Assembly (NCBI GenBank): GCA_019634305.1
Contig: JAHQVQ010000429.1
Location: forward strand, 1-32,435
Origin: Flammeovirgaceae bacterium
Lineage (GTDB): Bacteria > Bacteroidota > Bacteroidia > Cytophagales > Flammeovirgaceae
Reading direction: 5' to 3'
Length of the DNA: 32,435 bases
Every line of letters starts with the position of its first letter. Within the stretch, counting starts at the first letter, position 1. Under the pieces are notes generated by a model that saw only the letters and a program-made list of their open reading frames with translations, had not been told where the DNA came from and ran no database searches. Positions 27,338 through 32,327 of this stretch are shown here, piece by piece. Position numbers and translations under genes: made by a program.

Positions 27338-28033
27338 TTACACTGCCACCTGAATATTTTTTTTCTGATTATGTAATCCACATTCAGTTTTACTGGTGGC
27401 TTTCCATCTTCCTGTTCTTCCTTCTCCTTTTGAAGTACAATGCATACAACCCACTGAACCATAGCCTTTGCTTAAAAGTGGATTTCTTGGCAAGTTGTAT
27501 TTAGCTATATGCTTGTTGACTTCCTCCAGAGAAACATCTATTATCGGATGGAATTTTAATATTTCCTTAGTTTGTTCAAAAACTGATTTTCCGTTTCTAA
27601 ATTCATTTTGTTGACCAATTAATCCTGAAATCCAAACCTGATGCTTTTCTTTCAGACTATTGAGTGGTAAAACTTTGTTTACTGAGCAACACAAATCAGG
27701 GTTTTCCTTCCATATCTGATTTTCTGTGGTAAACTTATTATGCAATTTATCAGGGTTAAGGTCTATAATTTCAATCCCCAATAAATCCTGCAAATGGTTT
27801 TTATAATTTAATGTTTCCTGAAAGTGATAATTTGTATTGATAAAATAAACTTTCTGGTTTTTATTAATTTTGCTGATCAAATGCAACAAATAAACAGAAG
27901 TTGTTCCAAATGAAGAAGTCATTAAAACCTGATTTTTTGGAAAATCCTGGTACAACAGTCCAAGTCTTTCTTCTGGTTTTAATTTATTGTAAAGTAAATT
28001 AAGCGACTCCGTTTCAATTTCCTGTGTCTCCAT
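27338..28033 (-). CDS. cysH: Phosphoadenylyl/adenylyl-sulfate reductase (CysH-like, [4Fe-4S] cysteine motif)
   Basis: SSFGTTSVYLLHLI, LCCSVNKVLPL, GCMHCTSKGEGRTGRWKATSKTECGLH. ATG at 28033 (METQEI...) preferred; the ORF-track start is 28051. Overlaps the upstream gene's 3' end. Confidence 0.88.
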   Translation of the reverse strand: METQEIETESLNLLYNKLKPEERLGLLYQDFPKNQVLMTSSFGTTSVYLLHLISKINKNQKVYFINTNYHFQETLNYKNHLQDLLGIEIIDLNPDKLHNKFTTENQIWKENPDLCCSVNKVLPLNSLKEKHQVWISGLIGQQNEFRNGKSVFEQTKEILKFHPIIDVSLEEVNKHIAKYNLPRNPLLSKGYGSVGCMHCTSKGEGRTGRWKATSKTECGLHNQKKNIQVAV

Positions 28034-28640
28034 TTTTATCATTCTTCTCAATTAGGTTTGAAGTAATTTGATTAAGGACGTCTATTTTATGCTGGAAATC
28101 TCCTTTAAGACTGTCTCTTATTATTTTTAGTCTATCAAGCGTTTCAGTAATATTTTCTGGTAAAATATCTTCCAGAAGCATTCTAAATCTTTTGGCAAAT
28201 GTTGGTGATTTTCCATTGGTGGAAATTGCCACTTTAAGATCACCTTTAGTTACAATCGATCCTAAATAAAAATCACACAGATCTGGCGTATCAGCTACAT
28301 TCGTAAGGATATTTCTGGCAACAGCCATTTCCCGAATTCCCATATTAATTTTATTGTCGTCAGTAGCCACAATCACCAGCTTTTTCCCTTCCAAATCTCC
28401 TTCTTCAAAATTTCTTTTGTGAACAATCACCTGCTCATGTCTTCCTGCTATTTCAGCAACCTCCTCTATAAACTCAGGAGCAACCAGGGTTATTCTTGCA
28501 TTTGGGCTGCTTTTCATAATATATCTCATTTTCTCAGCTCCTGCATCTCCTCCTCCTACAATCAGGATATCGAATTTGTCCAGCTTCAGGAAAACCGGAT
28601 AAAGTACATTTCGAGATATATTTTCAACTGATTGATCCAT
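28014..28640 (-). CDS. Precorrin-2 dehydrogenase / sirohydrochlorin ferrochelatase (Met8/CysG N-terminal type)
   Basis: YPVFLKLDKFDILIVGGGDAGAEKMRYIMKSSPNARITLVAPE...VIVATDDNKINMGI...TNVADTPDLCDFYLGSIVTKGDLKVAISTNGKSPTFAKRFR. Confidence 0.92.
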   Translation of the reverse strand: MDQSVENISRNVLYPVFLKLDKFDILIVGGGDAGAEKMRYIMKSSPNARITLVAPEFIEEVAEIAGRHEQVIVHKRNFEEGDLEGKKLVIVATDDNKINMGIREMAVARNILTNVADTPDLCDFYLGSIVTKGDLKVAISTNGKSPTFAKRFRMLLEDILPENITETLDRLKIIRDSLKGDFQHKIDVLNQITSNLIEKNDKNGDTGN

Positions 28641-28747: not shown

Positions 28748-29509
28748 CTATCCTTCGTAGTAATAATTCTGTGAAACATACTCCATTACAAATTCCGGAT
28801 GAAGCTTAACCACCTCTCCAATAATAATAATGGCAGGGGTTCCTATTTTTCCTGATTCCGCCTTTTCCACAATACTATCCATTGTTCCCACTACTATTTT
28901 CTCTTCAGGCAATGAGCCATTCTGTATAATCAGAACTGGAGTTTCAGCTTTTCCTAAGGCTTTAAATAATTTTGAAATCTGAGAAAGTTTTTTCATTCCC
29001 ATCAAAACCACCAAAGTAGCATTTGTGCTTGCTGCCACTTTTATATCCCCAGTCAACTCACTCTCACTTCCAGTAGCTGTAGTTACCCAAAAACTATGGG
29101 TTATTTCTCTTCTGGTTAAGGGAATATTTTGCAAACCAGCCAAAGAAGTGGCACTGGAAATTCCGGGAATTACTTCCACTTCAATCCCAAAGCTTTCTGC
29201 ATATTCTTTCTCCTCATGCCCTCTTCCAAAAATAAATGGATCTCCACCTTTAAGTCTCACAACATTACCCTTTATAAGCACCTGAGAAACAATTATCTCA
29301 TTAATTTTTTGTTGCTTATAACTATGAGCACCCGACCTCTTCCCCACAAATATTTTGGTTGCATTTTCTGGAACATAATCTAATAAGTCCTTATGTACCA
29401 GAGCATCGTAAAGCACTACTCTCGCATTTTGCAGTGCTTTTACTCCTTTTACACTTATCAGATCCGGATCTCCGGGTCCTGCTCCAACCAACGTAAGTTT
29501 TTTTACCAT
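28748..29509 (-). CDS. cobA: Uroporphyrinogen-III C-methyltransferase
   Basis: LTLVGAGPGDPDLISVKGVKALQNARVVLYDALV, RLKGGDPFIFGRGHEE, IPGISSATSLAGLQNIPLTRR. ATG at 29509; the ORF track starts at TTG 29512. Confidence 0.95.
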   Translation of the reverse strand: MVKKLTLVGAGPGDPDLISVKGVKALQNARVVLYDALVHKDLLDYVPENATKIFVGKRSGAHSYKQQKINEIIVSQVLIKGNVVRLKGGDPFIFGRGHEEKEYAESFGIEVEVIPGISSATSLAGLQNIPLTRREITHSFWVTTATGSESELTGDIKVAASTNATLVVLMGMKKLSQISKLFKALGKAETPVLIIQNGSLPEEKIVVGTMDSIVEKAESGKIGTPAIIIIGEVVKLHPEFVMEYVSQNYYYEG

Positions 29510-29512
29510 CAA

Positions 29513-31660
29513 TTAGGCTTTATAATACTCATCAATTACCAACTTACCCTCCTGGTTTTTATCTTGTTGGATTTGTTTTTTTCTGTGTGATAATACCTCC
29601 TCGAAAAACTTAACTCCTCTCTCAAGATAGCTTTCTGCAAATTTTTTGGAAGGCTCTTGTTTGTTCAACTGAAGAACATCTTCCTCAAAAGAACCTTCAA
29701 ATTTAAACTTACCAGTAGAAACAAAATGCTTGTCAAAATCACGGATAATTCCGATTTGAGTATTACATTTTACATCATCACTCAGTAAAAGTGCCTTGGC
29801 AGCAATAATTTTTATATTATAAGCATGGTAAATAGCATCAGCAAAATGACCCTCACCAATTGCTTCTTTTGCCAAGCTAATTTTGGTTTCTGCATCTTTC
29901 AAAATCAGCCCGATCATATCGTACATTACACCAGCACATTCTCCAACTCCAATAGCTAATTTAAATTCTTCAGTATCTCCCCAATCAACAAAATCTTCGG
30001 CAACCAACTCAGATGTATCTGCAAGAGGTTTCAATAAATCGTAAAAATACCTTTTTCCCAATCGGTAGAAGTAGTCATTAAAATATTCGCCTTCTTCTTT
30101 CTTATCCTCAAAATCATTTAAAACCCATCTGATGGCTTCAATAATTTTCTTAGAAGGAAGTTTGATCACTTTTTCAGCCACAAAACCTTTTCCACTTGGA
30201 TCAACCCCACCACCAATCACCACTTGCATCGCTGGTATAACCAAAGCCCCTTTTTTTATAGAACTTCCATGGAACCCAATATTTGCAGCCATATGTTGAC
30301 CACATGAGTTCATACATCCACTTATCTTAAATTTAACCTGAGAATCAAATACAAGATCATGGTATTCTTTTCTAATCATTTTTTCTATCTCAACTGAAAG
30401 AACAGTACTATTCGATACTCCTAAATTACAAGTATCTGTACCAGGGCAGGCAGTAATATCAGCAGCAGAATTGAAACCTGGTTGAGCCAGATTTAATTCA
30501 TATAATTTATTGAAAATGACCGGAAGTGCTTCTTTTTTAATGTATTTGAACAACAGGTTTTGATCCACAGTTACCCTGATATCATCTCCTGCATATTCTT
30601 TAATTAAATCAGAAAGCTCTCTTGCGGTATCTGAACTGAAGTTACCAAGAGGTACAAGAGCATACACCCCGTAATATCCTTTTTGCTTTTGTTCGAACAC
30701 ATTAGTTACTAACCAATCTTTGTAAAGTTGCTCATCCAAAACTTTTACTTCTCCAATTTCCTTTTCCGCTGGCAGGCTCACTACCTCTTCTTTAATTTCA
30801 ATTTTTCCAACTTTTGCTTGTAAAGCCTTTCTTTCTTCCTCTACCAATTCTACAATTTTTTTAGCTCCAATTTTTTTAGCTAAAAATTTCATCCTTGCTT
30901 TATTTCTACTGGTTCTTTCTCCATGTCTGTCAAAAACTCTAACTAAAGCCTCAGCAAATGGTAATACTTCTTCTTCCGGTAAAAATTCATACGCAGTGTA
31001 GGCAATCATAGAAAGCGCACCTAAACCACCAGCAATTAGTACTTTAAATCCTTTCTTTTCTACTCCGTCAACAGTTTGAACTCTTGGAATTAAACCTAAA
31101 TCATGGAAATAAGTAAAAGCGGAATCATCATCACTTGAAGAAAGTGCAATTTTAAATTTCCTTCCCATTTCCTGGCAAATAGGATTTCTTAAAAAGAATT
31201 CAAATAACTTTTGTGCGTAAGGGGAAACATCAAAAAGTTCATTTGGGTCTATTCCCGCAACTGCAGAAGCAGTTATATTTCTTACAGTGTTTCCACAAGC
31301 TTCTCTTAGGGTAATATCCGATTCTTCCAAATCGGCCCAAAGTGCGGGCGACTCTTCTACTTTCACATAATGAAGCTGAATATCCTGTCGGGTAGTAAGG
31401 TGCAAGTTTCCATTGCTAAATTTATCGGAAGTAGCCGCAATGGTTTTTAATTGCTTAGAAGTTATTTTTCCATAAGGAATTTTAATCCTTATCATTTGCA
31501 CTCCTAGTTGCCTTTGTCCATAAACCCCTCTGGTTAACCTGAAAAGCTTAAACTTATCTTCTGGAATTTTACCAGCATTAAACTCTTTAATTTTTTCATC
31601 CAGTTCCAGAATATCTTTTCTGGCCTCCTTACTAATGTTCGAATTTGGATTTGTGCTCAT
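29513..31660 (-). CDS. Ferredoxin-type nitrite/sulfite reductase hemoprotein with HEPN-like C-terminal domain (sulfite reductase by context)
   Basis: GNLHLTTRQDIQLHYV, NTVRNITASAVAGIDPNELFD, TACPGTDTCNLGVSNST, KISGCMNSCGQHMAANIGFHG (siroheme/4Fe-4S cysteines). ATG 31660 (MSTNPNSN...) preferred: the ORF-track ATG at 31702 lies inside a terminator hairpin. Confidence 0.9.
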   Translation of the reverse strand: MSTNPNSNISKEARKDILELDEKIKEFNAGKIPEDKFKLFRLTRGVYGQRQLGVQMIRIKIPYGKITSKQLKTIAATSDKFSNGNLHLTTRQDIQLHYVKVEESPALWADLEESDITLREACGNTVRNITASAVAGIDPNELFDVSPYAQKLFEFFLRNPICQEMGRKFKIALSSSDDDSAFTYFHDLGLIPRVQTVDGVEKKGFKVLIAGGLGALSMIAYTAYEFLPEEEVLPFAEALVRVFDRHGERTSRNKARMKFLAKKIGAKKIVELVEEERKALQAKVGKIEIKEEVVSLPAEKEIGEVKVLDEQLYKDWLVTNVFEQKQKGYYGVYALVPLGNFSSDTARELSDLIKEYAGDDIRVTVDQNLLFKYIKKEALPVIFNKLYELNLAQPGFNSAADITACPGTDTCNLGVSNSTVLSVEIEKMIRKEYHDLVFDSQVKFKISGCMNSCGQHMAANIGFHGSSIKKGALVIPAMQVVIGGGVDPSGKGFVAEKVIKLPSKKIIEAIRWVLNDFEDKKEEGEYFNDYFYRLGKRYFYDLLKPLADTSELVAEDFVDWGDTEEFKLAIGVGECAGVMYDMIGLILKDAETKISLAKEAIGEGHFADAIYHAYNIKIIAAKALLLSDDVKCNTQIGIIRDFDKHFVSTGKFKFEGSFEEDVLQLNKQEPSKKFAESYLERGVKFFEEVLSHRKKQIQQDKNQEGKLVIDEYYKA

Positions 31661-31688: not shown

Positions 31689-31721
31689 AAAAAAACCTTC
31701 ATATTTAAAATAGGAAGGCTT
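31689..31721 (-). terminator. Attenuator terminator T2 between the poly-Cys leader ORF and sir
   Basis: Minus strand AAGCCTTCCTATTTTAAATATGAAGGTTTTTTT: CCTTC/GAAGG stem extended by G-U and A-U pairs and an inner A/T stem, then T7. Confidence 0.75.
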
Positions 31722-31782
31722 ACACTTTTTATGATTAACTTTTAATAAAATTAAAATCAATCGGAATGTATGAAGCCTTCCT
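31712..31782 (-). promoter_or_regulatory. Antiterminator pairing for T2 (AGGAAGGCTT : AAGCCTTCCT)
   Basis: Minus-strand 31782-31773 AGGAAGGCTT is perfectly complementary to 31721-31712 AAGCCTTCCT, which is also the 5' arm of T2. Confidence 0.7.
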
Positions 31783-31843
31783 TAAGCTGCTGTATTTCAC
31801 AGCAACAACAACAATTACAACAACAATAATTAAAACAATTCAT
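31757..31843 (-). CDS. 28-aa poly-cysteine leader peptide MNCFNYCCCNCCCCCEIQQLKEGFIHSD
   Basis: Direct translation of ATG 31843 to TGA 31757; 9 Cys in the first 15 residues (8 TGT, 1 TGC); directly upstream of the T2 attenuator and sir. Confidence 0.8.
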   Translation of the reverse strand: MNCFNYCCCNCCCCCEIQQLKEGFIHSD

Positions 31844-31885: not shown

Positions 31886-31917
31886 AAAAAAAAAGCCTTT
31901 CCAGATGGAAAGGCTTT
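31886..31917 (-). terminator. Attenuator terminator T1 downstream of the CCMM leader ORF
   Basis: Minus strand AAAGCCTTTCC-ATCT-GGAAAGGCTTT, 11-bp perfect stem, followed by a continuous T-run of 9 (31894-31886). Confidence 0.85.
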
Positions 31918-31966
31918 AGTATTTTGAATATGTACTAAATTTAATGACGTAATGACACACCTTTCC
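31907..31966 (-). promoter_or_regulatory. Antiterminator pairing for T1 (GGAAAGG : CCTTTCC)
   Basis: Minus-strand 31966-31960 GGAAAGG (codons AGG AAA GGT of the leader) is complementary to CCTTTCC in the 5' arm of T1 (31913-31907). Confidence 0.6.
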
Positions 31967-32039
31967 TATAGAAAACCAGCATCATACAACAGCTATGATG
32001 GGCATTTGGTCGACTTTGGAATGGAGTGTTATTAAACAT
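31941..32039 (-). CDS. 32-aa leader peptide MFNNTPFQSRPNAHHSCCMMLVFYRKGVSLRH
   Basis: Direct translation of ATG 32039 to TAA 31941; TGT TGT ATG ATG run (Cys-Cys-Met-Met) four codons upstream of the T1 antiterminator arm. Confidence 0.65.
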   Translation of the reverse strand: MFNNTPFQSRPNAHHSCCMMLVFYRKGVSLRH

Positions 32040-32303: not shown

Positions 32304-32327
32304 AAAAAAACCCGGATATACCGGGTT
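32304..32327 (-). terminator. Intrinsic terminator for a minus-strand gene entering from the right edge
   Basis: Minus strand AACCCGG-tatat-CCGGGTT followed by TTTTT. Confidence 0.75.

Follow-up and report, generated by a model that had tools for sequence, protein, structure and literature searches.

The 0.4 kb preceding the sir–cobA–met8–cysH operon very probably constitutes a double attenuator of transcription, ribosome-mediated and sensing charged Cys-tRNA. The operon, which serves to supply sulfide for cysteine synthesis, lies on the minus strand of the window, by which we mean the whole 32,435-nucleotide stretch of a Flammeovirgaceae bacterium that was analyzed (contig JAHQVQ010000429.1 of assembly GCA_019634305.1). 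Two leader-plus-terminator modules are present, of which an earlier note, made from the letters alone, listed the downstream one only. Comparison across relatives, recurrence specific to Cys, and the predicted terminators and antiterminators support, at the level of sequence, the earlier note's proposal that a trp-type attenuator reads the Cys codons.

Two leader modules ahead of sir

The features are given below in the order of transcription.

32309–32327, minus strand: hairpin resembling a terminator, where the preceding transcript probably ends (terminator scan)
31941–32039, minus strand: leader ORF 1, MFNNTPFQSRPNAHHSCCMMLVFYRKGVSLRH and stop codon (homologues in relatives; new in this analysis)
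31986–31991, minus strand: tandem Cys codons of leader 1, TGTTGT (direct reading and comparison with relatives)
31960–31967, minus strand: region 2 of leader 1, AGGAAAGG, partner of CCTTTCC in terminator 1 (−12.8 kcal/mol, p 0.009 versus shuffles)
31886–31917, minus strand: terminator 1, AAAGCCTTTCC-ATCT-GGAAAGGCTTT plus T-run (AAAGCCTTTCCATCTGGAAAGGCTTT); strong, −16.1 kcal/mol
31757–31843, minus strand: leader ORF 2, MNCFNYCCCNCCCCCEIQQLKEGFIHSD and stop codon, 9 Cys (direct reading; intact in F. dorotheae)
31799–31825, minus strand: Cys run of leader 2, codons 7–15, CCCNCCCCC, the proposed stall site (direct reading and shuffles)
31787–31805, minus strand: region 1 hairpin, TTGCTGT..ACAGCAG, overlapping the last Cys codons (folding)
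31773–31782, minus strand: region 2 of leader 2, AGGAAGGCTT (2:3 duplex −16.5 kcal/mol, p about 0.003 versus shuffles)
31712–31721, minus strand: region 3 of leader 2, AAGCCTTCCT, partner of region 2 or 5′ arm of terminator 2 (direct reading, folding)
31689–31718, minus strand: terminator 2, CCTTCCTATTTTAAATATGAAGG, stem 31718–31696 plus T7 31695–31689 (−5.5 to −8.5 kcal/mol)
29513–31660, minus strand: sir, nitrite/sulfite reductase family (Pfam PF01077/PF03460; NCBIfam scores do not reach the curated cut-offs of named subtypes)
28748–29512, minus strand: cobA-type uroporphyrinogen-III C-methyltransferase, siroheme (NCBIfam)
28014–28640, minus strand: siroheme synthase N-terminal domain, Met8-like (NCBIfam TIGR01470)
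27338–28051, minus strand: cysH, phosphoadenylyl-sulfate reductase (NCBIfam)

On the minus strand, leader ORF 2 reads ATG AAT TGT TTT AAT TAT TGT TGT TGT AAT TGT TGT TGT TGC TGT GAA ATA CAG CAG CTT AAG GAA GGC TTC ... TGA. Direct reading at 31843–31757 bears out the earlier note's description of nine Cys within the first 15 codons, and the other elements it had described were recovered as well. The perfect 10-bp 2:3 pairing is real, AGGAAGGCTT (31782–31773) being the exact reverse complement of AAGCCTTCCT (31721–31712); region 3 doubles as the 5′ arm of a terminator with its T7 ahead of sir (31718–31689); and folding places the region 1 hairpin across the last Cys codons at 31787–31805. The gene order sir–cobA–met8–cysH is likewise supported by Pfam and NCBIfam matches to the respective families. 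Region 2 sits within the ORF, 5′ of its stop codon. When the leader was folded, the 2:3 helix formed the core of the structure (z = −4.1 versus 200 shuffles). The stem of terminator 2, CCTTC-C-TATT-TTA-AATA-T-GAAGG, lies just before sir and is weak; it was absent from the output of a simple terminator scan. As this terminator (−5.5 to −8.5 kcal/mol) is weaker than its antiterminator (−16.5 kcal/mol), transcription could read through by default.

Only a single short ORF of the window reaches 4 Cys in 9 codons, and this one has 8 Cys. Dinucleotide shuffling of the window (25 replicates) gave a mean of 0.12 for the same count, and no shuffle reached 5 Cys, which rules out a chance ORF. A near-identical leader is present in the sister species Flexithrix dorotheae, where both modules are found; the nine Cys codons of leader 2, its regions 2 and 3, and both terminator stems are identical. 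The conservation check on leader 2 was thus passed, with the frame and every Cys codon intact.

The sir start was placed at 31660 (MSTNP). A longer frame from 31702 was rejected, as its start falls within the terminator arm and the frame is interrupted in F. dorotheae. At one other sir locus of the comparison the frame holds three stop codons within the match (frameshift or sequencing error).

The upstream module has the same architecture. Region 2 of leader 1 starts 19–20 nt past the last Cys codon, and taking both window leaders together the distance is 16–20 nt by geometry. The terminator at 31917–31892 was considered as the end of the previous gene and rejected since it comes after leader ORF 1; the hairpin at 32309–32327 is the better candidate. 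Across four genomes the stem of terminator 1 is invariant and its loop variable, and the pairing of leader 1 region 2 is maintained via G-U changes in two relatives. No confident promoter assignment was obtained upstream of the sir leaders, and no Rfam model (T-box, SAM riboswitches, amino-acid leaders) matched the sir leader at or above its gathering score. Assignment of leader 1 to the Rfam Phe_leader was rejected, its best match scoring 30.2 bits against a cut-off of 55.

Leader 1 has homologues before sir in F. dorotheae and two genomes from a different genus of the family; within the window's own genus, homologues also precede an oxidoreductase gene. The two genomes of the other genus combine a homologous leader 1 (RPGAHHSCCM) with a different leader 2 (MKKFTMIYMMMTCCCCNLSP). 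In the window's genome the core RPNAHxSCC recurs before a 2-oxoacid:acceptor oxidoreductase with changed codons. Comparison of the core TPFQSRPNAHHSCCMM between the window and F. dorotheae revealed four synonymous and no replacement codon changes; the RPxAHxSCC cores of the other genus and of the same-genus oxidoreductase leaders show 4–5 synonymous changes and one replacement each. This synonymous excess argues for selection on the peptide and not on the RNA alone, and it points to the conservation of the leader 1 peptide as the sole feature that a plain codon-counting attenuator would not need. Leader 1 might thus be an arrest peptide, with nascent RPNAHHSCC, and not uncharged Cys-tRNA alone, stalling the ribosome on a signal while leader 2 acts as a plain Cys-codon counter. 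We consider this unlikely. Its residues are kept while codons vary across genera and the oxidoreductase leader, and leader 1 has two Cys codons only; still, the RPxAHxSCC leader is confined to two genera of one family, with few sequences, shared descent of the cassette accounts for part of the peptide conservation, and the standard attenuator pairing is present in leader 1 too. Among 395 genomes of the class, RPxAHxSCC was found in the window's genome only, and within the order the leader was seen in two Flexithrix genomes and one of the sister genus, other matches seeming unrelated. An AHHSCC match in Chitinophaga was rejected as a leader because it falls within an apparent gene.

A model of tandem attenuation

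For the preferred reading, a double attenuator sensing charged Cys-tRNA, RNA polymerase, on its way to sir–cobA–met8–cysH, would pass leader ORF 1, terminator 1, leader ORF 2 and terminator 2. With ample cysteine, a ribosome translating the leader would clear the Cys codons and get to the stop codon, covering or lying just past region 2; region 3 would then pair with region 4 and transcription would stop. With scarce cysteine, the ribosome would stall on the Cys codons with its front edge just short of region 2, the 2:3 helix would form, and the polymerase would read through. Given the footprint of a ribosome, a stall on the last Cys codon would leave a region 2 at 16–20 nt free. As both terminators must be read through, the response should be sharper.

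Recurrence on sulfur genes of Bacteroidota

The earlier note had suggested a search for Cys-run ORFs with terminators before sulfur genes of Bacteroidota; it was run, and its success went well past expectation. The search was gene-centered and used sir orthologues from relatives and from 80 named genomes, with sampling uneven for Flavobacteriales and Bacteroidales. A Cys run was counted where a short ORF within 450 nt of sir held at least 4 Cys in 6 codons, and all 20 amino acids were scored alike. Such ORFs precede sir at 19 of 97 loci, compared to 0.05 expected from dinucleotide shuffling and 0.9 from the upstream regions of other genes. Leu came second (11 versus 5–7 expected), and the remaining residues were at or near background. 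The hosts include Saprospiraceae, Cytophagales, Cesiribacter, Fulvivirga, Pontibacter, Pedobacter and Mucilaginibacter, among others. Many sir loci carry no Cys leader directly upstream, including nine that represent an entire genus of the window's family. Scanning 296 whole genomes for the pattern of a Cys run with GGCTTTT was given up, as Ala, Leu and Gln repeats in coding DNA swamped the output.

An intrinsic terminator follows the Cys ORF in 36 of 50 cases versus 32 of 185 control upstream regions (17%), an enrichment of about fourfold, and the median distance from the Cys run to the beginning of region 2 is 16 nt in leaders across Bacteroidota. Antiterminators were tested against the 5′ arm of the terminator plus its loop, the 5′ arm alone having proved too narrow. 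The antiterminator beats shuffles (p ≤ 0.05) in 20 of the 36 terminator-bearing leaders, where 1.8 would be expected, and is no better than shuffles in 16; as loci share ancestry, combined p-values overstate the evidence. The proposed competition between 2:3 and 3:4 thereby gained statistical support from many non-homologous leaders. At several sir loci (five) the modules occur in tandem, each with its own terminator.

These comparisons also bear on whether the Cys run belongs to a gene for a small metal- or redox-binding protein, or to a chance ORF, with the hairpins being unrelated terminators. Poly-Cys peptides are able to bind metals. Conversely, the leader peptides before sir have only the Cys run in common between relatives and are otherwise unrelated (e.g., MKYSSLHTCCCCCTFPSPYSGS, MNRNLHSTFSRITISNLCCCCCYCCCCNRAWKAYVSSITLSKK and MKATNIFTTCCICICCCNTAT), and the Cys ORFs are located before sulfur genes with terminators after them at similar spacing. 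Together with the shuffles of the window, this makes such an origin extremely improbable.

Beyond sir, Cys leaders recur in Bacteroidota on genes for cysteine synthase and PAPS reductase and on homoserine and siroheme genes. In the window's genome, whose own scan for such leaders covered the pattern TGYTGYTGYTGY, there are three further sites with Cys leaders, at cysteine synthase, an oxidoreductase and O-acetylhomoserine sulfhydrylase. The cysteine synthase gene has a poly-Cys leader, MLLFAQNIFCLSTAATCCCCCAMRTGRIKLCMSKV, with a terminator, and this arrangement is conserved in F. dorotheae. The gene for the 2-oxoacid:acceptor oxidoreductase alpha subunit carries a pair of leaders, and the first belongs to the RPNAHNSCC type; in another genus the oxidoreductase leaders are tandem as well, albeit divergent, and five loci with tandem leaders before this gene were noted in all. 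The oxidoreductase leaders may couple the supply of electrons to sulfite reduction, the electron feed itself being a guess. A motif located about half of the ferredoxin orthologues across the class, and no Cys leaders were found among those read; ferredoxin-associated Cys leaders occur where ferredoxin precedes sir within one locus.

Two further arrangements were observed. At five loci (L098, L104, L114, L115 and L120) Cys-run short ORFs without terminators lie inside the operon just 5′ of cobA, and these possibly exert translational control. At L102 and L114, an ORF with a CCC Cys run and a strong terminator stand before a 1-Cys peroxiredoxin gene adjoining sulfur genes.

SAM-I composites and relation to known leaders

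At the O-acetylhomoserine sulfhydrylase gene of the window's genome (contig C428), the Cys leader MNKFISTSLTVHPFFKVVFCFFITCCCK begins right after a SAM-I riboswitch (S box, RF00162), an element that adjoins Cys-run ORFs in related loci and has no match above threshold in the window's sir leader. The distance from the end of the aptamer to the ATG of the Cys ORF is about 4–13 nt in related loci and the window's genome, and in nine cases from the Cys scan the Rfam SAM-I aptamer ends 8–13 nt before it. Outside the window's genome the combination was noted at 16 loci in all, L115 and L120 among them, and it stands before genes for O-acetylhomoserine sulfhydrylase or PAPS reductase, or before a sir locus led by ferredoxin. 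Viewed from the riboswitch, in a non-random sample of the class, a Cys ORF is often present at O-acetylhomoserine sulfhydrylase and PAPS reductase, and none was found after SAM-I before metH, metE or cystathionine-type enzymes in that sample. Most generic SAM-I riboswitches lack a Cys ORF, so the association is gene-specific. The composites are mostly without an intrinsic terminator, their ORFs end with the Cys run or shortly after it, and they thus probably act by another route, translational or Rho-dependent. A gate for two metabolites, SAM and Cys, is possible.

In comparison with the trp- and his-type attenuators of Proteobacteria, the window shares a short ORF rich in codons for the end product (nine Cys codons before sulfite reductase and PAPS reductase genes), an intrinsic terminator between leader ORF and first structural gene (weak in the case of terminator 2), a mutually exclusive antiterminator that uses the 5′ arm of the terminator, and a region 2 that, as judged from geometry, would be free with the ribosome stalled on the Cys codons. 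It differs in the use of Cys codons, the host phylum, the two serial modules, and the position of region 2 inside leader ORF 2.

In Actinobacteria, Cys leader peptides have been predicted without conserved terminator hairpins (PMC1262725), in agreement with the earlier note's remark that Cys-rich upstream ORFs are known at sulfur genes there. The leaderless polycysteine sORFs shown in mycobacteria (Canestrari et al. 2020, cited by PMC13236596 and PMC9094748) are described as acting by translational attenuation (PMC13236596). Like the window, these systems place Cys-run short ORFs before cysteine or sulfur operons; unlike them, with their control independent of a conserved intrinsic terminator, both window leaders have intrinsic terminators and antiterminators. 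Translational control of sir, in which a stalled ribosome alters folding at the sir start or feeds ribosomes there, is accordingly an alternative, and an improbable one. Besides the translational mode published for polycysteine uORFs in M. smegmatis (PMC13236596), it is favored by the Cys leaders of Bacteroidota that lack an intrinsic terminator, before cobA (L098, L104, L115 and L120) and behind SAM-I, which make a second mode in the phylum probable. Both window leaders, however, precede hairpin-plus-T-run terminators that compete with an upstream complement, and terminators are about four times as frequent after Cys leaders as before control genes.

A further counterpart is the uORFC-8-2 motif proposed at cysS of Rhodobacterales, where a short ORF carrying a tandem pair of Cys codons is followed by an intrinsic terminator, with a Cys-tRNA logic (PMC8632094). 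It belongs to another phylum and gene and has one module, and the accessible part of that paper describes neither long Cys runs nor combinations with sir, cysteine synthase or SAM-I. Within the same phylum, leader-peptide attenuation is reported for amino-acid biosynthesis operons of Flavobacterium psychrophilum, and the main text names neither cysteine nor sir among them (PMC9723704). A Cys leader in Bacteroidota, or a SAM riboswitch fused to one, was not found in the literature searched, which leaves out most subscription journals; within that coverage the search agrees with the earlier note that such a leader was undescribed in the phylum. The device would thus work like the trp type, Cys attenuators are known elsewhere, and it is apparently new to Bacteroidota.

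A wider reading can be offered tentatively, at somewhat less than even confidence: an RNA-based regulon of Cys leaders may run the assimilatory sulfur metabolism of Bacteroidota, placed in tandem before sulfide production and behind SAM-I before the use of sulfide for homocysteine, with SAM gating translation of the leader. Leader 1 would then possibly be a sequence-specific arrest peptide common to sir and to the oxidoreductase that could supply its electrons. Cys ORFs of this length are too short to pass annotation cut-offs, so standard annotation would overlook such a regulon. The attenuator reading provides a concrete and testable answer to how cysteine may be sensed in many Bacteroidota, and the tandem and SAM-I-fused versions would represent natural two-step and two-input switches.
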